DNA of 61,757 nt from contig JACDGM010000006.1 in assembly GCA_013815325.1 (NCBI GenBank), positions 1 to 61,757 on the forward strand, read 5' to 3'. This stretch comes from Chthoniobacterales bacterium. GTDB taxonomy: Bacteria > Verrucomicrobiota > Verrucomicrobiia > Chthoniobacterales > UBA10450. Shown here piece by piece: positions 1,635 to 60,712 of the stretch. Both the position numbers and the translations under genes were made by a program. The notes beneath the pieces were generated by a model. It made no database searches, was not told where the DNA came from, and saw only the letters and a program-made list of their open reading frames with translations. Positions within the stretch are counted from its first letter, which is position 1. The number at the start of each line of letters is the position of its first letter.

Positions 1635-4148
1635 ATGGCTCATGCTCTCACACCGATGATGCAACAGTATCAGCGCCTCCGCGCGAGCGTGCCGGAGGAT
1701 ACTCTGTTGCTCTTCCGGCTGGGTGACTTTTATGAGCTCTTCTTTGAAGACGCCAAAACCGCCTCCGTCCTGCTCAACCTGGCACTGACCAAACGCAATG
1801 ACGTTCCGATGTGTGGGATGCCGTATCACGCGGCGCAGAGTTACATCGCCAAGCTTATCAAAGCCGGCAGGCGCGTCGCGATCTGCGATCAGACGAGCGA
1901 GCCGCAACCTGGTAAGATCGTGTCGCGCGACATTACGCAGATCATTAGCGCCGGGACGGTAAGCGATCTGGATTTGCTGGAATCGAAGCGAGCCAACTAC
2001 CTCGGAGCAGTCTTCGTCGAATCCGGGGTTTTCGGCTTCGCTTACGCGGACCTCACCACCGGCGAATTCCGGCTGATGCAGCTAAATAACAAGGGCGCGC
2101 TCCTCGACGCACTCGCCCGAGTTTCGCCTTCCGAGTTACTGGCAAGCGACCAGCAACTGCAACAGTTCGCACAGATTCCGGGCACCCTCGCTTACGATCA
2201 CTATGCATTTCTTCCCGACAACGCCCTCTTCACACTCTGCGATCATTTCAAAGTCAAGTCACTCGATGGCTTCGGCTGCACCTCCCTCCCCCAGGCGATC
2301 GCCGCCGCCGGCGCGATTGTTCATTACCTCAAACATCAGCTACGCCGTAAAATCGATTACCTCACATCGCTGCGTTGCGAGGCGGCGAGCGACCACGTTC
2401 TGCTTGATGCCGCGACACAGACTAACCTGGAGCTGGTCGCTTCCCGCGGGGTGCGCGACACCAGCTTACTCGCGGCGCTCGACCGGACGGTAACGCCGAT
2501 GGGCGGCCGCCGGTTACGCGCTTGGATTCTGCAACCGATTCGTGAGCTCGCGGAGCTGGAAACCCGTCAGCAATTGATCGCAGATCTTTTGCAGGAATCA
2601 GACCTCTTGGGATCGCTGCGGGAAGCTTTGCGATCGATCCGCGATTTGGAACGAGCCGCCGGGCGCTTGAGCCAGGCCTCGGGCAACGCGCGCGACCTGG
2701 TTGCGCTAAAAGTTTCGCTCGAACAAATTCCGCACCTCAAAAGCGAACTACAGACGCTGCTCGATCGTTCCAGCTTCGGCGCGAATCGAGCGAGCGAGGC
2801 CGCTGGTCTCGAACTACTGGCGCAGCGACTTCACAACAATCTGCGAGAAATGCCCGAATTCGCTCGAAAGTTGGCTGACGCGCTCGCGGACGATCCGCCG
2901 CTCGTGCTGAAGGAGGGCGGTATTTTTCGCGACCGCTTTGATTCACAACTAGACGAGTTGCGGCAGGCTTCGCGCGACGGGAAAAATTGGATTACCGAAC
3001 TTCAGGATCGCGAAGTTAGCGAGACCGGCATCAAGTCGCTCAAGGTCCGTTTCAACTCCGTCTTCGGTTACTTCATCGAAATCACGAAATCGAATCTGGC
3101 CAGCGTGCCGGCGCGTTATACGCGGAAGCAGACCACCGTCGGCGGCGAACGTTTCATCACGCCCGAACTCAAGGAAATGGAGGCGAAAATTCTCGGCGCC
3201 GATGAGCGGGCGCGGCATCTCGAGTATCAGCTTTTCCAGACATTGCGTGAGGAGACGTTAGGCGAGCTTGGTCCGATTCAACAAACCGCCGCTGCGCTCG
3301 CGATTCTCGACGTGATTTGTTCCCTCGCGGAGACCGCGCGACTCTTTCACTACTGCCGGCCGAGACTCGATAACTCGCTTCGTCTCTGCCTGAAGGACGC
3401 CCGTCATCCTGTCCTCGATCAGAATCTCGCCGAAGAAAAATTTGTGCCTAACGACACCGATCTCGACGGCGAAAAGCTCCGTCTGGCCATCATCACCGGG
3501 CCGAACATGGCCGGAAAATCGACCTACATCCGCCAGGTGGCACTGATCGTTTTGATGGCACAGATCGGCAGCTTCGTGCCCGCGGCGAGCGCTGAGATTG
3601 GTCTGGTCGATCGCATCTTCACCCGCGTCGGCGCGAACGACGACCTCTCGCGCGGTCAATCCACCTTCATGGTTGAGATGAACGAGACGGCTAACATCGT
3701 CAACAACGCGACCGAGCGAAGCCTCATTATCCTCGACGAGATTGGCCGCGGCACTTCCACCTTCGATGGCCTTTCGATCGCTTGGAGTGTTGCCGAATTT
3801 CTGCACGACAAAATTAAAGCGCGCACCCTTTTCGCGACCCACTATCACGAGCTGACCAAGCTTGCGGAGCAGCGCAGCGGCGTCTCCAACTTCAACGTCG
3901 CCGTCCGCGAATGGAACGAGCAAATCATTTTCTTGCGCAAGATCGTCGCTGGAGGCACGGACAAAAGCTATGGCATTCAAGTCGCGCGCCTCGCGGGATT
4001 GCCGCGGGAGATTCTCGACCGCGCCAAGGACATTCTGTTGCATCTGGAGAACCCAAATGGGGCCGTAAAGAAGCCCGGCTCGGGAAAAGCGCGGCGCTCC
4101 CGCGGAATGCCGACACCACGAGAGAAGCCGCAACTCGACCTTCTCTAG
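1635..4148 (+). CDS. mutS: DNA mismatch repair protein MutS
   Basis: MutS scans DNA for mispairs and starts methyl-directed mismatch repair with MutL. The 837-residue product has the usual length. The N-terminal mismatch-recognition motif is at F32-Y33-E34. The ATPase has a Walker A motif GPNMAGKST near residue 622 and a Walker B motif LIILDEIGRGTS near 697. The C-terminal helix-turn-helix and dimer region is retained. I chose the ATG at 1635; a TTG two codons upstream (1629) is also in frame. There is no mutL in the window. The neighbouring gene upstream is a vsr-like remnant on the other strand, and a TPR gene follows closely. One copy of the dispersed 9-mer GCCTAACGA lies inside the gene at 3446-3454. 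Confidence 0.98.
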   Translation: MAHALTPMMQQYQRLRASVPEDTLLLFRLGDFYELFFEDAKTASVLLNLALTKRNDVPMCGMPYHAAQSYIAKLIKAGRRVAICDQTSEPQPGKIVSRDITQIISAGTVSDLDLLESKRANYLGAVFVESGVFGFAYADLTTGEFRLMQLNNKGALLDALARVSPSELLASDQQLQQFAQIPGTLAYDHYAFLPDNALFTLCDHFKVKSLDGFGCTSLPQAIAAAGAIVHYLKHQLRRKIDYLTSLRCEAASDHVLLDAATQTNLELVASRGVRDTSLLAALDRTVTPMGGRRLRAWILQPIRELAELETRQQLIADLLQESDLLGSLREALRSIRDLERAAGRLSQASGNARDLVALKVSLEQIPHLKSELQTLLDRSSFGANRASEAAGLELLAQRLHNNLREMPEFARKLADALADDPPLVLKEGGIFRDRFDSQLDELRQASRDGKNWITELQDREVSETGIKSLKVRFNSVFGYFIEITKSNLASVPARYTRKQTTVGGERFITPELKEMEAKILGADERARHLEYQLFQTLREETLGELGPIQQTAAALAILDVICSLAETARLFHYCRPRLDNSLRLCLKDARHPVLDQNLAEEKFVPNDTDLDGEKLRLAIITGPNMAGKSTYIRQVALIVLMAQIGSFVPAASAEIGLVDRIFTRVGANDDLSRGQSTFMVEMNETANIVNNATERSLIILDEIGRGTSTFDGLSIAWSVAEFLHDKIKARTLFATHYHELTKLAEQRSGVSNFNVAVREWNEQIIFLRKIVAGGTDKSYGIQVARLAGLPREILDRAKDILLHLENPNGAVKKPGSGKARRSRGMPTPREKPQLDLL

Positions 4149-4232
4149 CGATGAACTTCCCGCGAAGCCGGGGTGATTATTTCAATGACTCCGTGGCGCG
4201 CCCGTCGGATATTTCCCAATCTGTTTCCGCTC

Positions 4233-6356: not shown

Positions 6357-6378
6357 GCCGCTCCGCCGAACGACACGG

Positions 6379-6411: not shown

Positions 6412-7147
6412 GCGGGATGCAGATTAAACCTCTCGAGCCGGACGCGCCGTTGCCCCGAGCTTTCGCCAGACACCAGCCCCTAGATCACCAATACGGACTA
6501 CGCGGCACCGGCTCGGACGGTTGATTCGACGCGCCTAACGACCGCCCCGGCGGCTTGCGGCGTCCCAACTCATCACACATTAAACGCTTCACGCGGGACG
6601 CGGAGGTGGGATCCGCGACTTTGGGCTATCGCCCATCTCCTTAACCTGCGGATGGGCTGCTTCCTCTTCCAGCTCCCGCCAAGCTGTCACTATACGCCTG
6701 CCCGCTTGCACCGAATCCTCTCACAACTGGACCCGGCCCGGCGGAACGTCGTGGAATTTCGGGGCCATAGTTGATGGGTCGGTTTGGTGAACCAGTTTGC
6801 CGTCGGCAGGTCAGCCGCGTAGAACTCTCCGCGCCCATGCCGTAGAACCACCCCGAGCAGCCGACGTTGACGCGCGGCAAAGGCGGAGCCGAGGCTCTCA
6901 AGGATAACAAGGTCCGCGTCGCGCTCCCATGCGAGCCGGATGGCGTCACGTCTCGATTTCCCGCACCCCAGCGACCAAGAAATAATGGGACCTTGTTTCG
7001 GGTGGTATGGGCCTACGAAGACTCTGCCGACTCGTTAGTCTGTGCGGCGAAAACTCCGCGGCGCATGGCTCACCTGAAAAGTAACAAACGAGTAACCTTT
7101 CCGCGTTCGCATCGAAGAAGGAGTTCATCCAATCTCTGCCTACACCT
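6412..7147. other. Long intergenic region, no supported gene
   Basis: This stretch of about 735 bases holds no frame I can defend. The open frames on both strands have no recognisable domain and no ribosome binding site. One copy of the 9-mer GCCTAACGA lies at 6533-6541. A plausible ribosome binding site (GAAGGAG near 7118) lies rather far upstream of the ATG at 7148. Confidence 0.5.
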
Positions 7148-8619: not shown

Positions 8620-8664
8620 GGCACATGGCGCTGCGATTACTTCTGGAACTCCTTGACTTAGCGC

Positions 8665-9466: not shown

Positions 9467-10564
9467 CTACGGCTGGAGCAGCCACCTACCGATATCGCTG
9501 AGTGTCGAGCAGCCGCACAAGAGCATCGCTTCATCCAACTCACGCCTTAGTATTTCGAGGACCTGAGAGGCGCCTTCTTCGCCAGACACGCACAATCCCC
9601 ATAAAACGGGCCGGCCGACCAGGACCGCACGCGCCCCGAGCGCAATCGCCTTGAGCACATCGCTGCCACGGCGAATCCCGCCGTCAACATAGACCTCGCA
9701 AAGATCGCCCACCGCCTCGACTACATGAGGCAGCGCCTCGCACGTGGCCGGCGCGGTATCGAGCTGTCGTCCGCCATGATTGGATACCACCACGGCCTTT
9801 GCGCCCTGCTCCGCCGCCCGGCGTGCGTCGTCACCGCGGCAGACGCCTTTCACCACCACCGGTAATCGAGTAGCGCGGCATAACCACTCCAGATCATCGA
9901 ATCCAAGGTCTTCCTTAAAATTTGCTCTCACGTAGGCGGCAAGGCCGGAGCCTTGCACCTCAGGAAAGTTACCCTTGCCTAACGACGCGAGATTCTCCAC
10001 CACGAGACCATCCGGCAATCGGAAGCTGTTTCGCGCATCCCGTTCGCGGGTGCCCAACCCCGGCGCATCCACAGTTAGAACGATTGCCTCCGCCCCGGCG
10101 GCCTCCGCCCGCCGTACCAGCTCGACGGTGATCTCCCGATCTTTATAGATATATAGCTGGAACCAGCGCGGGCTGGCCGCCTGTGCAAAGACTAACTCCA
10201 TCGCGGTGTTGGAGAGTGAACTGAGAATAAACAAAGCCCCAACCGCCCTGGCGGCTTGAGCAGTGGCTATCTCACCCGCCTCGCAGGCCAGTTTATGAAA
10301 AGCGGTAGGCGCTACCACGATCGGCATGGAGACCGGCTGGCCAAGCACGGTCGTGCTCATGTCGCGGTTCGCAACTCCCGCCAGAACCCGGTAGTGAAGC
10401 TTAAATCGCGTCCAGCTCGCCGTGTTCTCTTGAAGGGTCACCTCATCCAGCGCTCCGCCTTCGTAATAGTCAAACGCCTCCTGCGAGAGTGCGCGTCGCG
10501 CCGCACGTGCGTAATCTGCGACGCTTAGGAGCGCTTCCATACCGTTCAATCGACTATTACGCAA
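9467..10564 (-). CDS. FMN-dependent alpha-hydroxy-acid oxidase/dehydrogenase
   Basis: The 365-residue product matches the L-lactate/glycolate oxidase family, which oxidises 2-hydroxy acids to 2-keto acids with FMN. The N-terminal segment AFDYYEGGALDEVTLQENTA, the FMN-binding MPIVVAPTAFHKLA and the active-site signature SNHGGRQLD (near residue 262, holding the catalytic His and substrate-binding Arg) are all present. The C-terminal VYVDGGIRRGSDVLKA and ALGARAVLVGRP complete the TIM barrel. No N-terminal cytochrome domain is present, so it is of the soluble oxidase type. The substrate cannot be told from sequence. The start may be the ATG at 10564 or the internal one nine codons on. One 9-mer GCCTAACGA is inside (9976-9984). 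Confidence 0.92.
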   Translation of the reverse strand: MRNSRLNGMEALLSVADYARAARRALSQEAFDYYEGGALDEVTLQENTASWTRFKLHYRVLAGVANRDMSTTVLGQPVSMPIVVAPTAFHKLACEAGEIATAQAARAVGALFILSSLSNTAMELVFAQAASPRWFQLYIYKDREITVELVRRAEAAGAEAIVLTVDAPGLGTRERDARNSFRLPDGLVVENLASLGKGNFPEVQGSGLAAYVRANFKEDLGFDDLEWLCRATRLPVVVKGVCRGDDARRAAEQGAKAVVVSNHGGRQLDTAPATCEALPHVVEAVGDLCEVYVDGGIRRGSDVLKAIALGARAVLVGRPVLWGLCVSGEEGASQVLEILRRELDEAMLLCGCSTLSDIGRWLLQP

Positions 10565-12761: not shown

Positions 12762-14525
12762 ATGAAAACTATTAAAGAAATTCTTCTCGTTTTGACTTGC
12801 ACGGCATTGGCGCTCAGCGCGCGAGCTGGCCGGGAGGAGGGTGTTCCGACGCGGCATAACGAAGCGACTATCGCCCAGCTCCAGACAGAGATGGCCTCGG
12901 GGAAGCTCACTTCAGTAGAGCTGACCAGGGAATACATCGCCCGCATCGGTGGGCTGGACCAGGGTAAGGAAGGGGTTAACTCGATCATTCAGCTCAACCC
13001 AGACGCGCTGAAGATGGCGGAACACGCAGACCAACTGCGCCGCCACGGCACGGTGCTGGGGCCACTCCATGGCATTCCCGTGTTGCTCAAGGACAACATC
13101 GATACCGGCGATAAGATGCAGACTAGCGCCGGATCGTTTGCCCTCGTCGGCAAGCCTGCTCTCCACGACTCCACCGTCGCCGCCAATCTGCGCGCGGGCG
13201 GTGCCGTCATCCTTGGCAAAACGAATCTTTCGGAGTGGGCGAACTTTCGCTCCTTTGAAGCCACCAGTGGCTGGTCGGGTCGTGGCGGGCAGACCAACAA
13301 CCCCTATGGCCTCGATCGCAATCCGTGCGGCTCAAGCGCCGGCTCCGCCGCGGCCACCTCCGCGAATTTTGCCGCAGTCTCGTTAGGCAGTGAGACCGAC
13401 GGCAGCATCGTCTGCCCGGGTAACGCCAACGGCGTCGCCGCCATCAAGCCGACAGTAGGTCTTACCAGCCGTGCCGGGGTGGTGCCGATCTCGCATACCC
13501 AGGATACGATCGGTCCGCACGGGCGCACGGTGGCCGATGCCGCCGCAGCCCTCGGGGTGATCCAAAGCCGCACCTACGATGGACGCGATGCTGCCACTGG
13601 CGGCGTCCCGCTCGGTTGGCAGCACACAGGCAAGACCCGTCCCAAGAACATTCCCACGGACTACACCCAATTCGTAGACCCGAATGGCCTTAAGGGTGCG
13701 AGACTTGGCCTGACTCGTGCAGGCCTGAACGGATTCGACCCGAACGTGCCGACACCACAACCGGTGCTCGACGCCTTCGAGAACGCGGTGGCTGCCCTCA
13801 CCGAGGCCGGCGCCACCGTGATTGATCTCGATGCCGCGGGCTTCACCTTCCCGTCGGCTGACGGGGAGTTCTTCGTGCTGCTCTACGATTTCAAGGGCGA
13901 TATCGCGAGTTACTTCGCCACCCGCGTCGGGGTGCCTGTGGCGGGCGGGACACTTCAGGATGCGATCGAGTTTAACGATGCCCATGCGAATATCGAGCTG
14001 CCGTACTTTAACCAGGACATCTTCCTCCTCGCGCAGACCATCAAGCTCGACCCCAACTTCGTCGATCCAACCTTCGGCCTGTCTTACAACCAGGCGCTCT
14101 TAATCGATCATAACGTGGGAGTCAACGGGATCGACGCGGCCATCAGTAAGTTCCACCTCGATGCGGTGGTGTCGGCGACCGATAACCCGGCGTGGGCCAC
14201 CGATCTGCTCTACGGCGACCGCTTCATCTTCGGGACCTCGGGCCTCGCAGCAGCACCTGGATATCCTATCGTCCAGGTACCCGCAGGCCAGGTCTTCGGC
14301 CTGCCGCTCGGCATCAGCTTCTTTGGCACGGCATTTAGCGAGCCCACTCTGATCAAGCTAGCCTCTGGCTTCGAGGCTGTGACTCAGGCGCGCGCGCGTA
14401 ACCTGCCAACCTTCGCCGACACGCTTCCCAATCGTCATATTCAAGGCACCGGGCTGCAGCCGCCCCGCCAGAATGCGGCGACGGTGAAACCGCAGGACGC
14501 CAGGAAGATGCCGCACCACATGTAG
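12762..14525 (+). CDS. Secreted amidase (amidase signature family)
   Basis: The enzyme hydrolyses carboxamide bonds. The substrate is not predictable. From ATG at 12762 the product has 587 residues, begins with a signal peptide (MKTIKEILLVLTCTALALSA) and is probably periplasmic. The amidase-signature catalytic triad is visible: Lys110 in LLKDNIDT, cis-Ser191 in CGSSAGSAAA and nucleophile Ser215 in SETDGSIVCPG. The 24-residue distance between the two serines is that of the family. A good ribosome binding site (AAGGAG) lies 9-14 bases before the ATG. One 9-mer TCGTTAGGC (13380-13388) encodes the Ser-Leu-Gly just before the nucleophile loop and uses a rare TTA codon. The gene is followed by a perfect hairpin. 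Confidence 0.93.
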   Translation: MKTIKEILLVLTCTALALSARAGREEGVPTRHNEATIAQLQTEMASGKLTSVELTREYIARIGGLDQGKEGVNSIIQLNPDALKMAEHADQLRRHGTVLGPLHGIPVLLKDNIDTGDKMQTSAGSFALVGKPALHDSTVAANLRAGGAVILGKTNLSEWANFRSFEATSGWSGRGGQTNNPYGLDRNPCGSSAGSAAATSANFAAVSLGSETDGSIVCPGNANGVAAIKPTVGLTSRAGVVPISHTQDTIGPHGRTVADAAAALGVIQSRTYDGRDAATGGVPLGWQHTGKTRPKNIPTDYTQFVDPNGLKGARLGLTRAGLNGFDPNVPTPQPVLDAFENAVAALTEAGATVIDLDAAGFTFPSADGEFFVLLYDFKGDIASYFATRVGVPVAGGTLQDAIEFNDAHANIELPYFNQDIFLLAQTIKLDPNFVDPTFGLSYNQALLIDHNVGVNGIDAAISKFHLDAVVSATDNPAWATDLLYGDRFIFGTSGLAAAPGYPIVQVPAGQVFGLPLGISFFGTAFSEPTLIKLASGFEAVTQARARNLPTFADTLPNRHIQGTGLQPPRQNAATVKPQDARKMPHHM

Positions 14526-23632: not shown

Positions 23633-23684
23633 GCATCGTTAGGCCTGGCAAATTTAGCGTCCTCCCCAGGCGTTTGCTCGTCCG

Positions 23685-26623: not shown

Positions 26624-26640
26624 ACTAGCCTAACGAATTA

Positions 26641-29185: not shown

Positions 29186-29306
29186 AGTCGTAACGCAGTC
29201 CGCGGTTCGGGCAACCGCCTAACGAAAAGGAAACGCCTAGCCGGAAGCGACCTTGATCTAACCCTCAGGCCACTCCCGCCAGGCGACTCACCTCTATTTG
29301 CCAACC

Positions 29307-34275: not shown

Positions 34276-34313
34276 GCGCGGGCTGCAGTCATTGCAGACG
34301 AAGCGATGCCGGC

Positions 34314-47501: not shown

Positions 47502-47668
47502 CGGATGAATCACAGAGACACAAAACACGCGAAGGTTCAGAGGAGAATCAAAAAATGGTCTCGCTGCCCTCTCTGTCTCTGGAGGTGAATCTTCTCGTCG
47601 CAAGGGAAACGACCGCCGCAGGACTTTCCCGCGGCGGCCGGGACTTTGACCTGAATTGAATCCTGCGC

Positions 47669-48406
47669 CTAACGAGCGAAGATCGCCGCGTCACGCGCCG
47701 CGCCGAGATCGGGCAGAATCCGCCTGCCATCGCCGGTCACCTGCACGTCGGCGATGATGGCCCCCTGGTAAACCAGCGGGACGCGCCAGAAACCTTCCCG
47801 CGGCATCACCTCCGCGCCGCCGGCGGCGCGCAATCCCCTAACGATTTCGGGGAGCCTGCCTTTGAGTTGCGCGGCGTCCATCGCAGGGCCGGCGGGCGGC
47901 GGGGCCGGATTGGTGCTGGCCGGAGCTGGCGACGGCGCTCCTGCGTCGGGCGGAGGCATGGGCGCGCCCGGCATCGGCTCGGGCCGCATTCCTTTGGGCA
48001 GAACGGTTCCATCGGCTGGATTGAAAGCGATCCGGGCGATCTCCTTGCCTTGATACAGGATCGAGGCCTCGAGCTGCTTTTCCCTACGCGGCGCGGTCTT
48101 TTCCCAAACCTGCCCCGGCGCGAAAGAACCGGCGGCATCGGCCACGAGTTTGGTTGCGCCAGCCGCGGCGCGCGGGTCCACCGGGCGCGCGTTCATCTCC
48201 CGACCGCGCGGCCCGCCATCGGGCGGAGGCGGCGGGCGATTTCCTTTTTTGCCGTCATGCGGCGGCGGTGGCGGCGCTTCTTCGTCGTTAGGCGGCGGCG
48301 GCGGTGCGTCCGGCGCTTGCGCCAGGCTCCAGGAGGCGCAGCCCAAGCCGGTGACGAGGACCGCGCTGACGATCAGTTTTCGAATCAATGGTTTTGTGGT
48401 TTTCAT
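47669..48406 (-). CDS. Secreted proline-rich protein, unknown function
   Basis: The 245-residue product has a signal peptide (MKTTKPLIRKLIVSAVLVTG then CASWSLAQ). A low-complexity Pro stretch follows, then two similar small domains (about 95-150 and 190-240). Each contains a YQGKEIA / YQGAIIA strand followed by ADGTVLP or GDGRRILP, so the protein looks like an internally duplicated fold with a Pro linker. A strong ribosome binding site (AAAGGAGG) precedes the ATG at 48406. A sigma-54 promoter match lies directly upstream. It is divergent from the MFS-kinase-regulator operon. Confidence 0.75.
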   Translation of the reverse strand: MKTTKPLIRKLIVSAVLVTGLGCASWSLAQAPDAPPPPPNDEEAPPPPPHDGKKGNRPPPPPDGGPRGREMNARPVDPRAAAGATKLVADAAGSFAPGQVWEKTAPRREKQLEASILYQGKEIARIAFNPADGTVLPKGMRPEPMPGAPMPPPDAGAPSPAPASTNPAPPPAGPAMDAAQLKGRLPEIVRGLRAAGGAEVMPREGFWRVPLVYQGAIIADVQVTGDGRRILPDLGAARDAAIFAR

Positions 48407-48436: not shown

Positions 48437-48613
48437 GGCGGCTGGAACTGACTTAAGCGACTGGTTTCTATTGCTTTGAGAATACTCAACGTTTAGGTCG
48501 ACGGCTCCATTCCGTCTGGAGGGAGGACAGATTGCGTCTGGTGACCGGACGAATCGTGCCTGTTCTGATGACTCTCCGTAAGTTAGCTGCCTAACGAGCC
48601 TAAGACGCCTGAT

Positions 48614-48738: not shown

Positions 48739-50076
48739 ATGACCAGTCTTTCCAAGTCCAAACGTTCTTCGGCGAAACCCTCCACTTCGAAAGGCGACGA
48801 CTCGAAGCGCGGGAGCGTGCGCGCGCTCATGACGCTCAATTTTTTCATCGCCGACGTGCAGAACGGCATGGGCGCGTTCGTCGCGCTCTATTTGATGGCG
48901 GGCGTTGGCTGGAACGCCGCGCAGATCGGCACCGCGCTCGCCGCCGGGAGCATCGCGCAGGTCCTCGCGCAGACTCCAGCAGGCGCGCTCATCGATCAAC
49001 TCCGCCAGAAGCGCGCGCTCATCATTACGGGCGGGGTCATGATCGCGATCGGCTGCTTGTCCATTGCGCTGCTCAGTACGCTCACCGTTGTCACCGCAGG
49101 TCAGGCGCTGATCGGCGTGGCCGGCGCGATTTTTCCGCCCTGTCTCGCGGCCATCGCGCTCGGCCTCGTCGGCCGCAAACGGATGGATCGGCAAATGGGG
49201 ACCAACCAGGCGTTCAACGCCGCCGGCAACATGACCGCGGCGGTCGTCTTCGGCGTGGTCGGATATTTTTTTGGCCTCAAATGGATGTTCTATCTCGTCG
49301 TTGTCTTCGTCGTGATCGCGATCATATGCGTGCTCCGGATCAAACCCGGCGACATTGATTTCGATCTCGCCCGCGGCGCGGACAGAGATGGCGCCGCGCC
49401 TAACGAATGCGTGGAAAAACCAAAAGGCGTCTGGAACGGACTCAAGGATTTGCTGGTTTGTTTCGGGCAACTATTCAAACAGCAGGCGGTCCTCGTCTTT
49501 CTGGTTTCGGCCGTGATCTTTCATTTCGCCAATGCCGCGATGGTGCCGCTGGTCACGGAGTTGCTCGGGAAAAATCAAGGTGTCGATAAGGCGATCCTTT
49601 TCACCTCGGGATACATGGTCGCGTCGCAATTTGTTTTCATCATCGTCGCGGCGTTGAGCGGACGGCTCGCGAGCAAGATCGGGCGCAAGCCGCTTTTCCT
49701 TTTCGCCTTCGCCGCGCTCGCGGTGCGCGGCCTCCTTTATACGCTCAGCCGCAATCCGGTCGCCTTGATCGCGGTGCAATGCATGGATGGTTTGGGCGCC
49801 GGAATTTTCGGCGTCGTCGCCGTCCTCATCATCGCCGACCTAACGAAAGGCACGGGGCGTTTCAACGCCGCCCAGGGCGCCATCGCGACCGCGCAAGGGA
49901 CAGGCGCGTTCTTGAGCAACTCGATCGCCGGTTACGTCGTGCATCACGCGGGCGCGAACGCCGCCTTTTACATGCTCGCCGCCATCGCCGCCGTCGGGCT
50001 GATCTTTTTCTGGCTCTTGATGCCCGAGACTAAGGGGATCGCGCATGGGAACCAGGCAGCGCCAGCGGCCGCATGA
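48739..50076 (+). CDS. MFS transporter
   Basis: The 445-residue product has 12 predicted membrane spans of the major facilitator superfamily. A charged N terminus (MTSLSKSKRSS) precedes the first span. The motif-A-like loop DQLRQKRALIITGG lies between spans 2 and 3, and a second at SGRLASKIGRKPLFLFAF. The cytoplasmic loop contains a GCCTAACGA copy (49398) that encodes Pro-Asn-Glu. Substrate unknown. It overlaps the histidine kinase gene by 4 bases (ATGA), so it is the first gene of a three-gene operon. ATG at 48739 is chosen over an upstream frame start. Confidence 0.9.
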   Translation: MTSLSKSKRSSAKPSTSKGDDSKRGSVRALMTLNFFIADVQNGMGAFVALYLMAGVGWNAAQIGTALAAGSIAQVLAQTPAGALIDQLRQKRALIITGGVMIAIGCLSIALLSTLTVVTAGQALIGVAGAIFPPCLAAIALGLVGRKRMDRQMGTNQAFNAAGNMTAAVVFGVVGYFFGLKWMFYLVVVFVVIAIICVLRIKPGDIDFDLARGADRDGAAPNECVEKPKGVWNGLKDLLVCFGQLFKQQAVLVFLVSAVIFHFANAAMVPLVTELLGKNQGVDKAILFTSGYMVASQFVFIIVAALSGRLASKIGRKPLFLFAFAALAVRGLLYTLSRNPVALIAVQCMDGLGAGIFGVVAVLIIADLTKGTGRFNAAQGAIATAQGTGAFLSNSIAGYVVHHAGANAAFYMLAAIAAVGLIFFWLLMPETKGIAHGNQAAPAAA

Positions 50077-51569
50077 AATTTTCGCTTCGCGCCGCTCTGG
50101 CCGGTCTTTGGCTGCTTATTCTCGTGCTCTGTCTCGCGCTCGCGGTTTTGATGCGCGGGTTATTCGAGCAAGGCGTCGGTGCGCAGCTTTCGCAGGGAAC
50201 GCAGAAAATTGATCGCGCGGGGCAGGAAGCAGCGCGGCGCTTCGAGCGTTATCGAGCAACCTTTAAAGGCCGGCCACCGCCCCTGAATGATCCGCAGGTG
50301 CGCACTGATTTGCAGACGATGCTGAGCGTTGCCCTGGCCGATTATCCAGGCGTGGAAGGTGGTTTCTGGAGCGGACCCGAGACGTCGTTAGGCTACGCTT
50401 TTCCCACGCACGATTCCGGCGCGCCGAAGAAGGATTTGCCGCGCACGGAATTGCCGCAGATCAAAGAGCTGGTGCAAGCCAGCCTAACGGCTCGCGCGCC
50501 GCGCGATCGTCGCTTCGACGGCAACCGCGCCTCCCTTTTGCTTCACGCGCAACCGTTGCCCGGTCCGCCGCCGAACCTCGCCGTCTGGACGATGACGCGC
50601 GCGCCGCTCGACGTCGGCGAGTCGTATCAGCGACTCACGCTCGGGCTTGGAGTTTTGCTTCTGCTCGCGCTCGGCAGCGGTCTTTGGCTGCTGCGTCTCC
50701 TGCGGCGCTGGACCAAACACATCGGCCGGCTTGAGAACGCGATTGCCTCCACCCCGCTCGAGGAATTGCCGCCTTTGCCCGCGACGGGTGAGCGCGAGCT
50801 GGATCGAATCGTGGTCGCTTTTAACCAGCTTAATGGCCGGTTGAGAACCTCGCGCGAAGAAGGCGCGCGGCTCGGGCGCGATCTCGCCCGGGCCGACCGG
50901 CTCGCCGCGGTCGGGCGCATGGCCGCCGGGCTCACGCACGAAATCGGAAATCCTCTCGCCGCCATGCGGCTGCGCGCGGAGAACGCCATCGGTGCGGACC
51001 ATGAGCGCGCGCAGACCGCCCTCCGCGCCGTGCTCGGGCAGATCGGTCGTCTTGAGGAATTGCTCGGCGCGCTGCGACTCCTAACGCGCACCGGAGAGAT
51101 CCGTTCCCAACCGGTCGCGCTCGTTCCCTACTTGCGGGAACAGTTGGAAGCCGTCCGGCCGCAGGCGACCAAAAGCGGAATCACACTCGCACTCGAGCCC
51201 GCACCGCCGGAGGACGCGCGCTGGAATTTCGACGAGAAGAGTGTGGCGCGTGCGCTCGGAAATTTGTTGTTGAACGCAATCCAGCACACGTCGTTAGGCG
51301 GGCGCATCACCCTTGGCGCCGAGGTTTCCGAAGAGTGCTGCCGCTTTCGCGTGGCCGACAGCGGCGCGGGCGTCGCCGCCGCCGAGAGCGAGCGCATCTT
51401 CGAGCCGTTTGTCACCGGCCGGGCGGAAGGCATGGGCCTGGGCTTGAGCCTGGTGCGCGAAATCGCCGAGGCGCACGGCGGGAAGGCGATCTGCCTAACG
51501 AGTCCGGTAACGCCCGAGACACGCGGCGCGGTCTTCATTCTCGAAATACCGCGATGGCAAAAATCCTGA
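50073..51569 (+). CDS. Sensor histidine kinase (NtrB-like)
   Basis: The 498-residue kinase has an N-terminal span, a periplasmic region of about 160 residues and a second span (LTLGLGVLLLLALGSGLWLL). A HAMP linker and a catalytic core follow. The phospho-acceptor is His289 (in LTHEIGNPLAAM). The ATPase has the N box (LGNLLLNAIQHTS), the G1 box (DSGAGVAA) and the G2 box (GMGLGLSLVREIAEAHGG). Its ATG overlaps the MFS stop. The next gene (NtrC-type regulator) overlaps by 16 bases, so they form a pair. The signal is not known. Three 9-mers are inside. Confidence 0.95.
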   Translation: MKFSLRAALAGLWLLILVLCLALAVLMRGLFEQGVGAQLSQGTQKIDRAGQEAARRFERYRATFKGRPPPLNDPQVRTDLQTMLSVALADYPGVEGGFWSGPETSLGYAFPTHDSGAPKKDLPRTELPQIKELVQASLTARAPRDRRFDGNRASLLLHAQPLPGPPPNLAVWTMTRAPLDVGESYQRLTLGLGVLLLLALGSGLWLLRLLRRWTKHIGRLENAIASTPLEELPPLPATGERELDRIVVAFNQLNGRLRTSREEGARLGRDLARADRLAAVGRMAAGLTHEIGNPLAAMRLRAENAIGADHERAQTALRAVLGQIGRLEELLGALRLLTRTGEIRSQPVALVPYLREQLEAVRPQATKSGITLALEPAPPEDARWNFDEKSVARALGNLLLNAIQHTSLGGRITLGAEVSEECCRFRVADSGAGVAAAESERIFEPFVTGRAEGMGLGLSLVREIAEAHGGKAICLTSPVTPETRGAVFILEIPRWQKS

Positions 51570-52924
51570 TCGTGGACGATGACGCCGCCTTCGCCGAGGG
51601 ACTGGCGGAAACGCTGAGCGATCTGAGCCATTCCCCCGCGCTGGCCGAAAGCGGCGAACGCGCGCTCGTTCTTTTGCAGGGCGACGATTGCGGCGGTTTC
51701 GACCTCGTCTTTCTCGACCTGCGGATGCGCGGGATGGACGGCCTGGAGACTTTGCGCCGGATCAAGGAGAAGCCGGAGTGCGCCGAGCTGCCCGTCGTGA
51801 TGCTGACCGCGCACGCCGATGGCGCAAACACGATCGAAGCGATGAAGCTCGGCGCCTTCGATCACCTAACGAAACCGATCGGGCGCGAAGACGTGCGGGC
51901 GGTGCTCGGTCGCGCCTTGAGCCGGCCGCGCGCCGGCAAACGCGCGCCGGCCGCTGGCTTGCGGCCTAACGACGATCGCTTGATCGGCTCGAGCGCCGCG
52001 ATGCGCGAAGTGCAAAAGCTCATCGGCCTCGCTGCCGGCGGTGATGTCACTGTGCTCATACAAGGCGAGACCGGCACCGGCAAAGAGGAAGTCGCGCACG
52101 CGCTCCACCGGCACGGGCCGCGCGCGGGCAAACCGTTCGTCGCGGTCAATTGCGCGGCCATTCCCGCTGAGCTTTTGGAGAGCGAGCTCTTCGGCCACGT
52201 CCGCGGCGCGTTTACGGGCGCGATGCGCGACCGCGTCGGGCGTTTTCGGGAAGCCAATAACGGCACATTGTTCCTCGACGAAATCGGTGACATGACGCCG
52301 GCGATGCAGGCGAAAATTTTGCGCGTTTTGCAGGATCGCCTGATCACGCCGATCGGATCCAGCACTTCTCAACGTGTGGATGTCCGCATCATCGCGGCCA
52401 CACATCGCGACCTGATCGCGATGGTGAAGGAGGGCGCCTTTCGCGAAGACCTTTTTTATCGGCTCAACGTTCTGCGCATCAGCCTGCCGCCCTTGCGCGA
52501 ACGCGGCGCGGACATTCTCGTCCTGGCCGAACATTTCCTGCGCGAGCTCGCGCCCGAAAATCCCAAGCGGCTCACGCCCGCCGCGGCCGAAGCGCTCCTC
52601 GCGAATAGCTGGCCCGGCAATGTGCGCGAGCTGCGCAACCTCCTCCAGCAAGCGACCCTCACAGTGCGCAAATCGGTAATCGACCGCGCCGACCTTCCGC
52701 TCGGCCTCGCCTCGTCGCCGCCGCCCGAAACGATCGAGGCGCTCCTCCTTCTTCCCTTTAGCGAAGCGACAAGCCGTTTGGAAAAATTGTTGCTCGAGCG
52801 CGCGCTATGCGAAGCCGACGGCAATCGCGCAGAAGCGGCTCGCCGCCTGGGCATTCATCGCCAGTTTCTCTACGCGAAGTTGAAAGAGCACGGCTTGGGA
52901 GATAAGCCGAGCTCCGAAATTTGA
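51554..52924 (+). CDS. Sigma-54-dependent response regulator (NtrC family)
   Basis: The 456-residue activator has a receiver domain (phospho-Asp55, in LVFLDLRMRGMDG), an AAA+ domain with Walker A GETGTGKEE near residue 171 and the sigma-54 contact loop GAFTGA near 218. A Fis-type helix-turn-helix at the end (GNRAEAARRLGIHRQFLYAK) completes it. It is expected to activate sigma-54 promoters upon phosphorylation by the kinase upstream. The nearest candidate promoter is upstream of the Pro-rich gene (48422-48436). Confidence 0.96.
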   Translation: MAKILIVDDDAAFAEGLAETLSDLSHSPALAESGERALVLLQGDDCGGFDLVFLDLRMRGMDGLETLRRIKEKPECAELPVVMLTAHADGANTIEAMKLGAFDHLTKPIGREDVRAVLGRALSRPRAGKRAPAAGLRPNDDRLIGSSAAMREVQKLIGLAAGGDVTVLIQGETGTGKEEVAHALHRHGPRAGKPFVAVNCAAIPAELLESELFGHVRGAFTGAMRDRVGRFREANNGTLFLDEIGDMTPAMQAKILRVLQDRLITPIGSSTSQRVDVRIIAATHRDLIAMVKEGAFREDLFYRLNVLRISLPPLRERGADILVLAEHFLRELAPENPKRLTPAAAEALLANSWPGNVRELRNLLQQATLTVRKSVIDRADLPLGLASSPPPETIEALLLLPFSEATSRLEKLLLERALCEADGNRAEAARRLGIHRQFLYAKLKEHGLGDKPSSEI

Positions 52925-52949: not shown

Positions 52950-54203
52950 TCAGCCGCGCGTTTTCTGCAGTTTCGCGGCGAAGGCGCCGTCGATTCCCTC
53001 GCGGAAGGGAAGTGTCTGCTCCGGTCTCGTTAGGCGAAAAGCAGGGTGCGTGCGCAGGAAGGCCGCAACCACTTCTTCGTTCTCTTCCGGTTCCAGGCTG
53101 CAGGTGCTGTAGACTAACGAACCACCCGGCTTGAGCAGCGGCGCGACATTTTCCAGAATGGCCAGTTGCTGCGCCCGCATCCGCGTGAAATCCTCTGGAC
53201 GCAAACGCCAGCGCACGTCGACCCGGCGGCGCATCACGCCCGTATTGCTGCAGGGTGCGTCGAGCAGGATGTTGTAAAACGATTGCGGCTGGAAAGCGGC
53301 GGCGCGAATCGATTCCGCGTCCAGCCAATTGCACCGGACAATGGTCGCGTTCGTCACGCCCAGCCTAACGAGATTGCCGCGGAGACGGGGGAGCCGCGCT
53401 TCGTCGCGATCGGCGGAGATGAGCGTGCCGCGGTTCATCATCATTCCTGCGAGGTAGGCGGATTTGCCGCCGGGCGCGGCGCAGGCGTCCAGCACGGTTT
53501 CTCCAGCTGAGGGCTGCAACAGTTCGCAGGCAAGCGCGGTGCTCGGATCCTGAATGTAACAGTCACCATTCGCCAGGGCCGCGGCGGGTTCCGGCAAATC
53601 GACGAAGCCCGCGTGTTCGCCTAACGAGACGCTGCCGGGGTATTTCTGCATGAAGGCAGCAGCGCTGATCTTGAGCGGGTTGATGCGCGCATGAACCGTC
53701 GCGGGCTGGTTGTTCCAGCGGCAGAGCTCGATCGCGGATTCCGTGCCAAATTGTTGCGTCCATTTTTTGACGAGAAATTTCGGCTCGGAAAACTGAGCCG
53801 CGAGTGGTAGAGCGCGAGCCAGTTTGGTTAGGTGATCCTTCTCGCAAAGCGCTCGGCGCAGGAGGGCGTTGATCAAACCGCGCGCCCGCGGCGGGGCGAG
53901 CTCGACGGTCTCGAAGACGGCGGCGTGCGCTGCAGTCTCGATGAGGAGGAGTTGGTAGAGACCGAGCCGGAGAATGTCGCGTGAGGTGGAATCAACCGGC
54001 GCGGAACGCAATTGCGTGATCCAGAAATCGAGCAGGGTGAGGTTGCGCAGGAGGCCGTAGAAAAGCTCGAGCGCGAAGGCGCGATCGGTGGAGCGGAGCG
54101 CGCTGCGGGCGAAAGTGTCGGCGACAATTTGATCGGCAAATTCTGTTCCGGTGCGCCAGCGACACAAGGAGGCGAGGGCTAGCGCGCGGCTCGATTGTTT
54201 CAT
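52950..54203 (-). CDS. rsmB: 16S rRNA m5C967 methyltransferase RsmB
   Basis: The 417-residue enzyme methylates C967 of 16S rRNA. The N-terminal NusB-like domain (RALALASLCRWRTGTEFADQ) is followed by a SAM-dependent methyltransferase domain. It has the motif VLDACAAPGGKSAYLAGMM, the motif DAPCSNTGVMRRRVDVRWRL and the catalytic-Cys motif VYSTCSLEPEENE. Length fits RsmB rather than RsmF. It is convergent with the regulator gene. Five or more 8-mers lie in it or beside it (53027, 53363, 53619, 54217). Confidence 0.95.
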   Translation of the reverse strand: MKQSSRALALASLCRWRTGTEFADQIVADTFARSALRSTDRAFALELFYGLLRNLTLLDFWITQLRSAPVDSTSRDILRLGLYQLLLIETAAHAAVFETVELAPPRARGLINALLRRALCEKDHLTKLARALPLAAQFSEPKFLVKKWTQQFGTESAIELCRWNNQPATVHARINPLKISAAAFMQKYPGSVSLGEHAGFVDLPEPAAALANGDCYIQDPSTALACELLQPSAGETVLDACAAPGGKSAYLAGMMMNRGTLISADRDEARLPRLRGNLVRLGVTNATIVRCNWLDAESIRAAAFQPQSFYNILLDAPCSNTGVMRRRVDVRWRLRPEDFTRMRAQQLAILENVAPLLKPGGSLVYSTCSLEPEENEEVVAAFLRTHPAFRLTRPEQTLPFREGIDGAFAAKLQKTRG

Positions 54204-54265
54204 CTCCTCACACTTCGCCTAACGAGGTTGTTTTCAAATCCCGCGGCGGGTGGATTGCTCTTTCG

Positions 54266-54479: not shown

Positions 54480-54520
54480 GGAAAATCATTCGCCCCAACC
54501 TGGAATATTCAACGCTTTCG

Positions 54521-55834
54521 TTAGGCCGACTTGCCGCGCGGCCGGCCGATCGAGCTGTAATAAAAGCCGAGCTTCTGCATCGTTTCCGGATCGTAAAGAT
54601 TACGGCCGTCGAAGATCATCGGCGTGTGCATTTTTTCTTTCACGGCCGCGAGATCGACGTTGCCGAATTCCGCCCATTCCGTCGCGATGATGAGCGCCTC
54701 CGCGTCTTCCAGCGCTTCCATTGCTGTATTCGTTAGGCGGGCATCCGCGATCGATTTCACTTCTCTCGCTTTTTCCATCCCTTTCGGATCGTAGGCGGAG
54801 ACTTTGGCGCCTTCGCGCAGCATGTCAGCGACGAGTTCGATCGCGACCGAGGAGCGGATGTCGTCGGTGTCGGGCTTGAAGGTCAAACCCCAGACCGCGA
54901 TTTTTTTATCACGCAAGACCCAGAGCGCATCGCGCACGGCTTTGAGGAAGCGATCCTTCTGAGTCGCGTTGATCCGCTGCACTTCTTTGAGCAGGTTAAA
55001 AGGCACGCCGAGCTGCTCGCTGATGGTGATGAAGGCGGCGATGTCCTTTGGAAAACAAGAGCCGCCGTAGCCGATGCCGGCGTTGAGGAAATTCCGGCCA
55101 ATGCGCCGATCCATTCCGATGCCGTCGGCCACTTTCTCGATGTCGGCGCCGCTCGCTTCGCAAATCGCAGAGACGGCGTTGATGTAGGAAATTTTAAGCG
55201 CAAGGAAAGAGTTGGCGGCGTGTTTGATCAACTCCGCGCTGTTGATGTCGGTGACGAGGATCGGCGCCATAAACGGCTCGTACACTTTCTTCATCAGATC
55301 GATCGCGCGCTCGCTCTGCGCACCGATGACGATGCGATCGGGCTTCATGAGGTCGGCCACGGCGCAACCTTCGCGGAGGAATTCCGGGTTGCTCACGACG
55401 TCAAACTCGGCGCCATGTTTGTTGTAGCGCTTGATCGACTCTGCGACTTTCTCGCCCGTTTTCACCGGGACCGTACTCTTATCGACGATCACCCGATAGC
55501 CGGTGAGGACTCCGGCGATTTCGCGGGCGACCTTTTCGATAAAGCTGAGATCGACGCTGCCGTCGGCATCCTGCGGCGTGGGCACGGCGATAAAAATAAC
55601 CTGCCCGCCATCGACGCCTTCCTTGATGCTGCCGGTGAAGCGCAATCGTCGCGCGGAGACATTGCGGTGAATGATTTCCTCGAGGCCCGGCTCGTAGATC
55701 GGAACCTTGCCTTGCTGAAGCGACTCGACTTTGCGCGGGTCGTTATCGACGCAGATGACGTTATGGCCGACATCGGCAAAACAGGCGCCGGTGACGAGCC
55801 CGACGTAGCCGGAGCCAATTATTGAGAGATCCAT
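54521..55834 (-). CDS. ugd: UDP-glucose 6-dehydrogenase
   Basis: The 437-residue enzyme makes UDP-glucuronate from UDP-glucose with two NAD. The Rossmann motif GSGYVGLVTGACFADVGH (residues 7-24) is followed by IAVPTPQDADGSVDLS, NPEFLREGCAVADLMKPDR and the catalytic Cys260 in GYGGSCFPKD. The product is used for envelope polysaccharides. Gene is complete. Two 9-mers (54518-54526 and 54730-54738) lie at and near its 3' end. An inverted repeat is on its 5' side. Confidence 0.96.
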   Translation of the reverse strand: MDLSIIGSGYVGLVTGACFADVGHNVICVDNDPRKVESLQQGKVPIYEPGLEEIIHRNVSARRLRFTGSIKEGVDGGQVIFIAVPTPQDADGSVDLSFIEKVAREIAGVLTGYRVIVDKSTVPVKTGEKVAESIKRYNKHGAEFDVVSNPEFLREGCAVADLMKPDRIVIGAQSERAIDLMKKVYEPFMAPILVTDINSAELIKHAANSFLALKISYINAVSAICEASGADIEKVADGIGMDRRIGRNFLNAGIGYGGSCFPKDIAAFITISEQLGVPFNLLKEVQRINATQKDRFLKAVRDALWVLRDKKIAVWGLTFKPDTDDIRSSVAIELVADMLREGAKVSAYDPKGMEKAREVKSIADARLTNTAMEALEDAEALIIATEWAEFGNVDLAAVKEKMHTPMIFDGRNLYDPETMQKLGFYYSSIGRPRGKSA

Positions 55835-55922: not shown

Positions 55923-55937
55923 TCTCTTCGTTCTCTC

Positions 55938-58358: not shown

Positions 58359-59486
58359 CTAGGTGCGGAGCACGAGCGCGGCGACTTGTTGATTCAATCC
58401 GCACGTCGTCACGAAGGCGCGCCGCCAGGGCGCTGCGGCTGGATTTTCCGCGGTCGTTAGGTCGAAATCCGGAGGCGCGCCTAACAATGACGGCAGCTCC
58501 TGTTTTCGTAGCGCCTGCGCCGCGCAGATCACTTGCCAGATTCCGCCCGCCGCGACGCTTTCGCCGAGCGCCGGCTTTAGCGTGTAGATCGCCGCGTCGG
58601 GGTAACATTTCTCCGCCACGCTGCGCTCCGCCTGATCGATGAAGGTTCCGTTGGCGCTTGCAATCAGCAGGTCGGTCCGCTCGTTCGTCGCGCAGTCGCG
58701 GCCGATCTCGCCCAGCTGCCTAACGAGCTCGCGCTGCCGCGCAAAATTTCCTCCCGAATGAATCTGCTCGATCGCGACCGCGCCTTCCCGCGCCAGCAGC
58801 ACCGCGCCCGCGCCCTCGCTCAAAACCGTCCCGCGCGCCGGTCGCGCGAAGGGCTCGATCGGCGGCCCCGTGCGCAGCAGTCGCCAGTGGCGATAAGCAT
58901 CGCAGAGCAGCCAATCCACTTCCTCGGCGCCGACCACAAGACATCGCTCCAACTCCGGATTGGCCATCAAATCCTCCGCCATTTTCAACCCCAGAATTCC
59001 CACCGCGCCGTCGCCCACCAGCGTGTAACTCGCACCCGTGATCCCGAGGATTGCCGCGAGATGACTCGCCGGGGCGTTGAAAACCGTCTCGGGAAAAAGC
59101 AGAGGGCTGGCCGCTTGGGCGCCCGATTTCACGATCTCGTGATAGAAGCGCTTCGTATAAATCACCCCACCATTCGAGATGGCGAAAACCAACGCCGTCC
59201 GCGCCGCGGCCGCGGCGTCCAGCTCGAGGCCGGCATCGCGCAAGGCGGCCAGCCCTGCGACTACCGCAAAGCGCGAGATCGCGCTCGAGCGCCGGAGCCG
59301 CGGATGGCGCGCGGCTTCCGTGACTGCCTCAGGCGGCACGCGAAAGGCGACCGCGCCTTTTTCGCCTAACGAATCTCCTAACGACGACGCGTCCGCCGCT
59401 TCCCCGGCACGCAACTTTTCCCAGACGCCCTGGACCGTGCTCCCAAGCGGCGTGACCCATCCCAAACCCGCGAGGCGCGTACTCAT
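58359..59486 (-). CDS. Beta-ketoacyl synthase homologue without catalytic residues (chain-length-factor-like)
   Basis: The 375-residue protein has the thiolase fold of ketosynthases (VVAGLAALRDAGLELDAAAA, ALVFAISNGGVIYTKRFYHE). All three active-site residues have changed: the Cys loop reads YTLVGDGAVGI (no Cys), the first His loop reads IASANGTFIDQ (Asn for His), and the second reads LKPALGESVAAGG (Glu for His). This is the pattern of chain-length-factor partners of KS heterodimers. Its gene overlaps the preceding active KS by 4 bases (59483-59486), so a heterodimer is likely. The product type is unknown, with no ACP or other modifying genes nearby. Confidence 0.8.
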   Translation of the reverse strand: MSTRLAGLGWVTPLGSTVQGVWEKLRAGEAADASSLGDSLGEKGAVAFRVPPEAVTEAARHPRLRRSSAISRFAVVAGLAALRDAGLELDAAAAARTALVFAISNGGVIYTKRFYHEIVKSGAQAASPLLFPETVFNAPASHLAAILGITGASYTLVGDGAVGILGLKMAEDLMANPELERCLVVGAEEVDWLLCDAYRHWRLLRTGPPIEPFARPARGTVLSEGAGAVLLAREGAVAIEQIHSGGNFARQRELVRQLGEIGRDCATNERTDLLIASANGTFIDQAERSVAEKCYPDAAIYTLKPALGESVAAGGIWQVICAAQALRKQELPSLLGAPPDFDLTTAENPAAAPWRRAFVTTCGLNQQVAALVLRT

Positions 59487-60712
59487 GCCGCGCGCGCCGC
59501 GAGCACGATCGTTGCGTTCGTGCCCCCGAAGCCGAAGGAATTCGAGAGCGCCACGCGTGGGGCGGCGAGGCGCGGCTCGTTCGCGACGATGTCGAGAGCG
59601 AGATCGGCGTCAGGCGCGCGGAAGTTGATGTTCGCCGGCAGAAACCCGTGACGGAGCGCGAGAAGCGTAATCACTCCTTCGATCGCGCCGGCTGCGCCTA
59701 ACGAGTGGCCCATCATTCCTTTGGTCGAGCTCACTGGCACCCGCCCGAGCAGCTCGGCGATGGCCCGGCCTTCCGCGGCATCGTTGAATGGCGTCGCCGT
59801 CCCGTGTGCGTTAACGTAATCGACTTCGTGAGGCGCGAGCCCCGCGCTCGTAAGCGCGCGCTCCATCGCCTGGCGCGGGCCGATCCCGGACGGATGCGGC
59901 TGAGTGAGATGATGATTGTCGGTCGAGATGCCGTAGCCGGTAATTTCCGCAAGAATGCTGGCCCCGCGCGCTTCAGCCGACGCGAGATTTTCCAAGGCGA
60001 GAAGCGCCGCGCCTTCGCCGAGGACAAGGCCGCTGCGCCGGCCATCGAACGGCCGGCATTTATCCGGCGTCGAGGCTTGCAACGAATCGAACCCGACAAA
60101 GACCAGTTCCGAAAGCGCGTCGTAGCCGCCGGTCAAAATGCGTTCGTAGCGACCGGAGCGGATACACTCGAAGGCATGGCCGATCGCGTTCGTGCCGGAG
60201 GCACAGGCGTTGGCAATCACCTGGCAGGGCGAGGCAAGGCCGCAGGCTTCGAGCGCGTCCACCGCCGGTTTTTGCGGCGGATAATTCGCAATCCAAGCCG
60301 GCACCCGCCGCGCCCGCGCGTCCGGCTGCTGGAGCGCGCGGTAATACTGTTCGCCGAAACTCATTCCGCCGCTCGTAGTGCCGACGACGGTGATCTCCGG
60401 GCGGAACTCCGGCGCTTGGGCAAGCAATTCGCGCAGCGCACAGATCGTCATGCGCGAGACGCGATGGAGCCGGCGCGCCTTGCGGTGGTTAGGTAGGGCA
60501 TCGGCTAAACTTGCGTCCGCCACCTGCCCGGCAGTCGTGCAATGGCATTGCTCCACCGGGAAACGTGTCACCGGCGAAACGCAATCACGCGCCTCGCGCA
60601 ACGCGGCGAGGGTGGCCTCGAAGCCGAGGCCGAGCGGACTCACTACGCCGGCTGCGACCACCGCGACGCGCGCTCCTCTTCCCCTCTCGCGATTGCTCAC
60701 ATGGCCGGTCAT
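59483..60712 (-). CDS. Beta-ketoacyl-ACP synthase II-like (active ketosynthase)
   Basis: The enzyme condenses malonyl-ACP with an acyl chain. From ATG at 60712 it has 409 residues, like FabF. The Cys-His-His set is complete: Cys170 in IANACASGTNAIG, His in VNAHGTATPFND and His in KGMMGHSLGAAGA. The NSFGFGGTNATIVL motif is at the end. An upstream in-frame extension (60713-60829) covers a dispersed repeat and is unlikely to be translated. Together with the chain-length-factor-like gene it suggests a dedicated acyl or polyene chain rather than ordinary fatty-acid synthesis. Two or more 9-mers are inside (59696, 59364 in the neighbour). Confidence 0.9.
   Translation of the reverse strand: MTGHVSNRERGRGARVAVVAAGVVSPLGLGFEATLAALREARDCVSPVTRFPVEQCHCTTAGQVADASLADALPNHRKARRLHRVSRMTICALRELLAQAPEFRPEITVVGTTSGGMSFGEQYYRALQQPDARARRVPAWIANYPPQKPAVDALEACGLASPCQVIANACASGTNAIGHAFECIRSGRYERILTGGYDALSELVFVGFDSLQASTPDKCRPFDGRRSGLVLGEGAALLALENLASAEARGASILAEITGYGISTDNHHLTQPHPSGIGPRQAMERALTSAGLAPHEVDYVNAHGTATPFNDAAEGRAIAELLGRVPVSSTKGMMGHSLGAAGAIEGVITLLALRHGFLPANINFRAPDADLALDIVANEPRLAAPRVALSNSFGFGGTNATIVLAARAA

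Follow-up and report, generated by a model that had tools for sequence, protein, structure and literature searches.

The DNA analysed here (the window) is a stretch of 61,757 nucleotides from a Chthoniobacterales bacterium. It is contig C31 (JACDGM010000006.1) of a draft genome, G000 (GCA_013815325.1; 209 contigs, 4,151,608 bases or 4.15 Mb, 94% complete), which we call the own genome in the comparisons below. The window is ordinary chromosome, with genes including those for MutS, PutA, ALAD, an RsmB-type methyltransferase, LptD and GlgE. A 9-mer, GCCTAACGA (word A; its octamer is CCTAACGA), is iterated along it, and this word is the subject of the present analysis.

We counted 55 copies of word A in the window against 0.30 expected, a number reached by none of 100 dinucleotide shuffles. 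They spanned positions 3446 (first start) to 59704 (last end; Table 1). The initial annotation had likewise given 55 copies and roughly 60 percent G+C content (GC), which we measured at 59.7%; its 68 octamers (39 plus, 29 minus) became 69 in our recount (39 plus, 30 minus), and the enrichment it described stood, with 0.97 octamers expected under an order-2 Markov model. The iteration is confirmed as real and extends far past the window. Genome-wide, G000 carried 2754 copies (1431 on one deposited strand, 1323 on the other), and the reversed word used as a control occurred 66 times. A count of 9-mers against a Markov model had been proposed; in 550.8 kb of G000, word A ranked first of 107,411 9-mers (strands merged), with 452 copies versus 3.41 expected (order 2). 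Neither outcome that the annotation had named as fatal to its reading was seen: the word was not lacking in genome-wide enrichment, and it was not restricted to a single repeat family or to few genes.

Placement was surveyed for 381 copies in G000. We found 302 wholly within called genes (80% of the sequence surveyed), 58 in intergenic regions and 21 across a gene boundary. This split, together with the flanks, in which no conserved repeat was found in the window or the G000 contigs, agreed with the earlier description of copies in both orientations, within and between genes and not limited to terminators or repeats. The sole flank signal was a mild pyrimidine excess (62-71% C or T at 4 bases upstream). 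In 462 kb of G000, one-mismatch forms were enriched when the change lay at the ends of the word (CCCTAACGA 42, GCCTAACAA 39 and GCCTAACGG 30 copies) and rare when it lay in the centre. Sense and antisense copies numbered 158 and 144 in G000, and 60 and 36 in its congener G426; copies were distributed evenly along gene length. The four stop-free reading phases were used about equally (87, 74, 71 and 70), the freedom from stops being true by construction with genes called by a simple custom script and not by a standard caller. This equal use places the constraint on the DNA and not on one peptide.

The heptamer GCCTAAC is similar to the attC R box, which could point to integron residues (attC half sites) or to a dispersed repeat family. 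attC sites consist of inverted half sites in pairs, separated by about 50-150 bp. Adjacent copies of word A preferred none of the possible relative orientations (100, 92, 91 and 86 of 369 gaps). Neighbours 100-200 bp apart were in opposite orientation in 14 of 29 cases, with no excess at attC-like spacing, and close inverted pairs were not in excess either, gaps below 60 bp numbering 12 versus 19.5 expected, with no excess of any orientation. Terminators and attC sites thus do not explain word A, and with unconserved flanks and copies inside housekeeping genes an integron or repeat origin is hardly conceivable. Gaps below 100 bp were fewer than expected in G000 (25 versus 37.3, p 0.016), and 15 were counted in G426, where about 22 were expected. 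We made no use of even spacing as an argument, since overall the spacing in G000 gave no rejection of randomness (Kolmogorov-Smirnov (KS) p 0.23). Close pairs were few, with 6 of the 369 gaps shorter than 30 bases, one of them being that between the copies at 24325 and 24340 of the window.

We then compared homologous sites between species. Genes of G000 were paired by reciprocal best match with those of three congeners, G426, G424 and G427 (73-75% nucleotide identity), and the expected number of intact sites was taken from all other 9-base windows in equal codon phase. Own sites were intact at 20 of 24 places in G426 (2.7 expected), 7 of 12 in G424 (1.4) and 4 of 10 in G427 (0.9). Pooled, 31 of 46 site comparisons were intact against 5.0 expected, a tally in which one own site may count up to three times. 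The G426 set includes two overlapping stretches, L080 and L179, despite which reciprocal best matching counts each own gene once. Seen from the congeners, 20 of 26, 7 of 10 and 4 of 8 sites of G426, G424 and G427, respectively, were intact in G000. Over the 46 comparisons, third codon positions within the word were identical in 123 of 138 cases (89%) versus 54% across the same genes, and the flanks (12 bases upstream, first 4 downstream) were 55-66% identical versus a gene mean of 76%. Word A stands out as a nine-base island of conservation whatever the reading phase. Such an island argues against drift, biased mutation and codon usage, and by itself does not say what reads the word. In two further members of the family, own sites were intact at 6 of 34 places in G166 (1.6 expected) and at none of 23 in G013, which lacks dense word A (1.0 expected). 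A mutational or codon-usage artefact might be invoked for so short a word, with no other support; the equal phases, the 452 copies versus 3.4 under the order-2 model, the third positions and the 0 of 23 in G013 make its probability practically negligible.

Only part of a single Chthoniobacterales family is dense in word A. Of the 83 genomes of this family that were examined, seven had more than 1400 copies, all the examined members of genera g1 (1410-4605 in 5 genomes), g207 (2147) and g3 (1802); the remaining 76 had 19-587. In the sequence pools analysed, word A was also the top 9-mer in g203 (20 versus 0.62 expected) and g205 (9 versus 0.16) and the second in g209 (8 versus 0.29), and none was found in 32 kb of g204. 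In a draw of 387 genomes of the phylum, it was high only in G000 and G166, followed by genus g40 of family f11 (61-133), G013 (60) and G378 (59), all others having at most 29; outside the family, the maximum of this draw was 133. We take the family to be the Udaeobacteraceae of GTDB. Records at the comEC locus were metagenome-assembled genomes labelled Chthoniobacterales, Spartobacteria or Verrucomicrobia, two of them Candidatus Udaeobacter, and the soil habitat of these organisms follows from sample names and from PMC7343977. The g40 genomes just mentioned (G187, G190 and G199) belong to the same class and showed a weak excess of GCCTAACGA; in G187 and G190 together, GCCTAACAA occurred 7 times in 80 kb versus 0.22 expected.

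A second word and a genome dense in both words lie beyond what the window alone could show. G013 was saturated with AAGATCGACA (word B), whose 9-mer AGATCGACA ranked first there (75 in 193 kb versus 2.61 expected). Within the family, AGATCGACA occurred 4941 times in G166, 1157-1672 times in g208 (4 genomes), 1226 in g200, 973 in G013, 249-1190 in g201 (6 genomes), 873 in g199 and 137-892 in g209 (35 genomes); it was low in g1 (69-89) and in the other genera (29-139), and reached at most 167 outside the family in the 387-genome draw. The reversed control of word B contains CTAG and is itself depressed, so that word B was judged against the Markov expectation and the genomes without it. G166 (2.9 Mb) was bilingual, with 1802 copies of word A beside its 4941 of word B; 160 kb of it held 284 B versus 2.57 expected and 106 A versus 0.90. 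The B sites of G013 were kept in G166 at 17 of 18 places (1.5 expected), and those of G166 were intact in G000 at none of 53 (2.6 expected). In G166 (L023, L125, L186-L197), word B was often repeated in direct tandem at a distance of 15 or 16 bases; such pairs accounted for 22 of the 35 cases in which neighbours lay less than 60 bases from each other.

In the ComEC tree, the genera dense in word A only (g1 and g207) formed one clade (100/100), and a second clade (100/100) grouped G013, G166, one g201 and two g209 genomes, G166 being dense in both words. The dialects follow phylogeny in this one gene tree of 19 genomes. The moderate excess of word A in genera outside both clades suggests, from the same tree, that word A came before word B.

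Neither word showed polarity. Strand counts per contig were compatible with 1:1 for word A in G000 (chi-square 10.5, 12 contigs) and in G166 (13.3, 14 loci), and for word B in G166 (14.7, same loci) and G013 (4.5, 13 loci); in G000, 201 copies of word A lay on the G-rich strand and 180 on the other. These tests were done on draft contigs only, with replication arms approximated by GC skew, and within that limit they uphold the earlier argument from weak orientation bias against Chi and the FtsK orienting polar sequences (KOPS). Chi likewise is a frequent short word, and the density and clade-specificity of words A and B would be compatible with Chi-type sites. Chi sites are orientation-biased, unlike word A, and the lack of strand bias for either word makes Chi, KOPS or another orientation-dependent recombination or segregation site very improbable.

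Word A was not equally dense along the chromosome. Four of the 369 gaps exceeded 8 kb versus 0.3 expected (462 kb of G000). Among the deserts is a type I restriction locus (HsdR, HsdS, HsdM; contig C84, 11.4-19.6 kb) adjoining a 2-oxoacid dehydrogenase E2 (SucB-like) gene that carries four copies. Others contain RHS genes (contig C100) and, where the C55 stretch begins, genes for polysaccharides (glycosyltransferase, Wzz, DegT, Gfo/Idh). Ten desert proteins were scanned, all from outside the two largest between-copy gaps, which lie in C82 (19.7 kb) and C11 (9.6 kb). These deserts may represent acquired DNA. At the other extreme, 13 genes carried four or five copies; of the 10 scanned with Pfam, nine encoded DnaE, E2, PutA, DsbD, asparagine synthase, phosphoglucomutase, a MacB-type permease, an amino acid permease and a protein kinase, and the tenth matched no family.

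A search for comEC and pilin genes had been recommended, and G000 proved to encode ComEC and DprA and gave two matches for secretins and 11 for prepilins. Within the window itself, as the initial annotation had stated, no competence gene was recognised, here by Pfam (E cut-offs 1e-8 or 1e-5) among the 41 open reading frames, all scanned, 5 of which matched no family. ComEC was found in all 19 genomes searched, DprA and secretin each in 12 of 12, and prepilins in the four genomes searched (11 matches in G000, 14 in G426, 17 in G166 and 13 in G013). A pseudopilin cluster has orthologs in these same four genomes and includes a conserved pilin that we read as GspH/FimT-like, a candidate receptor. 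Two other pilins were rejected as receptors of word A. The pilin common to G426 and G166 (L199:2469-2924) had matches at E 1e-20 in 7 family genomes out of 83; four of the five g1 genomes, including G000, lacked it, as did G423. The L173/L184/L191 pilin group gave only a partial paralog match in the A-rich G427 and full matches in B genomes such as G431 and G390.

Taken together, saturation, lack of polarity, conservation at homologous sites, clade-specific words, absence over some foreign-looking loci and the presence of competence genes favour reading GCCTAACGA as the self-recognition word by which this family of soil Chthoniobacterales takes up DNA in natural transformation, an interpretation that we consider probable. 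The initial annotation had proposed such a role, which most of the sequence tests favour and which is thereby partly supported. By inference, uptake would be promoted by the word, a pilin would read it, and its maintenance would come from drive through transformation. Binding of word-bearing DNA would fall to a protein at the surface of the type IV pilus, probably one of the minor pilins, and the pilus would draw this DNA through the secretin; ComEC would pass one strand, and DprA and RecA would recombine it. Word-bearing DNA being preferentially taken up, alleles with the word would spread and persist. Such preferential uptake would leave the chromosome saturated, the word conserved at homologous places and scarce in DNA of recent acquisition. 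The second, unrelated word AAGATCGACA would serve part of the family, with one genome dense in both.

Several observations weigh against the uptake reading. ComEC was also found in 10 of 14 control genomes, and ComEC, DprA and secretins were equally present in relatives in which no word is dense, for example G399; the machinery, as complete there, does not discriminate. No word-specific receptor emerged from the two pilin families tested family-wide, both of which failed. A bias to gene ends was absent in G000 (KS versus uniform p 0.84 sense, 0.72 antisense), as was the excess of close inverted pairs. In the weakest congener pair, G426 and G427, only 1 of 6 sites was intact (0.5 expected), four more being one base off. 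The deserts in C53 and C58 contain genes that could not be called foreign. Word B was uneven over the reading phases of G166 (70, 67, 43, 16, 10 and 1), and its antisense copies leaned to gene starts (KS p 0.003), so that its coding cost may matter.

Viral contigs add to these difficulties. We surveyed 58 stretches from three paired-word scans, 30 reached via A pairs and 28 via B pairs. L250 (IMGVR_UViG_3300036819_000104, 1-12120), with genes for terminase gpA, a lambda-type portal and an S49 protease, had 9 copies of word A in 12.1 kb, lying from 1.7 to 10 kb, near host density. L235/L240 (IMGVR_UViG_3300036832_000197, 48% GC) had 7 copies in the 27.7 kb examined, including close direct pairs and counting the copies of one stretch that recurs at both contig ends. 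The remaining A-pair stretches had 2 or 3 copies each; among the B-pair stretches, L259 had 5 copies of word B and L284 had 4. Mobile DNA is thus not free of word A. Phages of these hosts may carry the words, and the uptake model must accommodate them.

Some of the same results could be due to a role like that of the highly iterated palindromes (HIPs) of cyanobacteria, the word being the target of an orphan DNA methyltransferase or of a nucleoid or repair protein and serving chromosome structure, repair or expression and not uptake. HIPs likewise saturate genomes, are clade-specific and are in some genomes replaced by other words (PMC4390886); conservation between species would look alike, word B contains GATC, and the uptake machinery does not track the words. 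The HIPs described in that paper are palindromic and linked to methyltransferases that share their specificity; for HIP1, a palindromic octamer, these are orphan methyltransferases. Word A, by contrast, is a non-palindromic 9-mer, as its sequence itself bears out and as the initial annotation had noted, which makes the comparison with HIP1 less likely, and word B, taken whole, is no palindrome either. Uptake accounts at least as well as a HIP1-like role for the absence of word A from restriction, RHS and polysaccharide loci, and we regard such a role as unlikely.

The uptake reading invites comparison with the two known systems, those of Neisseriaceae and Pasteurellaceae, named in PMC12616744 as the only families known to have uptake words. 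The DNA uptake sequences (DUS) of Neisseriaceae, with eight dialects, are also short non-palindromic words, often in thousands of copies, located in genes as well, with dialects along phylogeny (PMC3630211, PMC12616744). The genome of Simonsiella muelleri has two dialects, as G166 does; they differ at one base, whereas words A and B are unrelated (PMC3630211, PMC12616744). The CTG core of DUS is absent from word A and its complement, inverted pairs are frequent in DUS and absent for word A, the phylum differs, and the DUS receptor is ComP. The uptake signal sequences (USS) of Pasteurellaceae share with word A a 9-base core and high copy number, and occur as two types in their family (PMC12616744, PMC2346458). 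They differ in a GCGG core absent from word A and its complement, in AT-rich downstream tracts where word A has only the pyrimidine excess just upstream, in a bias to gene ends not seen for word A, and in a predicted receptor, ComN (PMC12616744). Lacking the CTG and GCGG cores, inverted pairs and gene-end bias, word A falls outside DUS and USS proper and would work like them if the inference of uptake holds.

In the open-licence PMC literature, we found among the matches listed no report of uptake words in Verrucomicrobia, Spartobacteria, other phyla or Udaeobacter, and the titles listed for word A as a text string were unrelated. A term search of the Udaeobacter paper (PMC7343977) found no mention of competence, DNA uptake, pili or transformation. 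The chances seem to us evenly balanced that uptake words arose here independently for a third time, outside Proteobacteria and in a common soil lineage, with A and B dividing the family into mating groups, G166 reading both, presumably through two receptors, and a replacement in progress. That replacement is suggested by the 17 of 18 B sites of G013 kept in G166, which has many more B sites and A sites as well. If so, a distant phylum would offer a third case, with densities graded over 83 genomes, a pair of unrelated words and a genome dense in both. Long-standing questions would become testable: whether biased uptake is enough to create words, how one takes the place of another and whether they isolate species sexually. 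Abundant uncultured soil bacteria would then exchange genes by transformation inside marked groups, and the word would be a sequence tag for finding its receptor.

Table 1. Copies of word A in the window, with strand and gene
Position	Strand	Gene
3446..3454	+	MutS
6533..6541	+	
9977..9985	+	
13380..13388	-	
16820..16828	-	
17995..18003	+	
19173..19181	-	
21502..21510	+	
21630..21638	-	
23636..23644	-	
24325..24333	+	
24340..24348	+	
26224..26232	+	
26628..26636	+	
26882..26890	+	
27044..27052	-	
27951..27959	-	
28710..28718	-	
29217..29225	+	
30793..30801	-	PutA
31160..31168	+	PutA
32156..32164	+	PutA
32581..32589	-	PutA
34269..34277	-	
35708..35716	-	
36322..36330	+	
36497..36505	-	
37132..37140	-	
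37222..37230	-	
37537..37545	-	
38234..38242	+	
40394..40402	-	
42879..42887	+	
42981..42989	+	
44108..44116	+	
44530..44538	+	
47211..47219	+	
47258..47266	+	
47667..47675	+	
48285..48293	-	
48589..48597	+	
49398..49406	+	
50385..50393	-	
51291..51299	-	
51493..51501	+	
51964..51972	+	
53027..53035	-	
53363..53371	+	
53619..53627	+	
54217..54225	+	
54518..54526	-	
54730..54738	-	
58718..58726	+	
59364..59372	+	
59696..59704	+	

No comparable dispersed word was found in the other genomes, sampled at up to 20 kb each, a depth at which sparse words would escape. One 20-kb stretch of G045 (L064; G045:C1:1-20000), a genome from a different family of the class, contained two locally repeated words, TTAGATCAGAC and TTACAGACAA, which did not recur in two further 20-kb stretches, so that this candidate was dropped. 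In the window, no tRNA was found, and the sequence opens (positions 1-712) within the 3' end of a 23S rRNA gene, after which comes a 5S gene.

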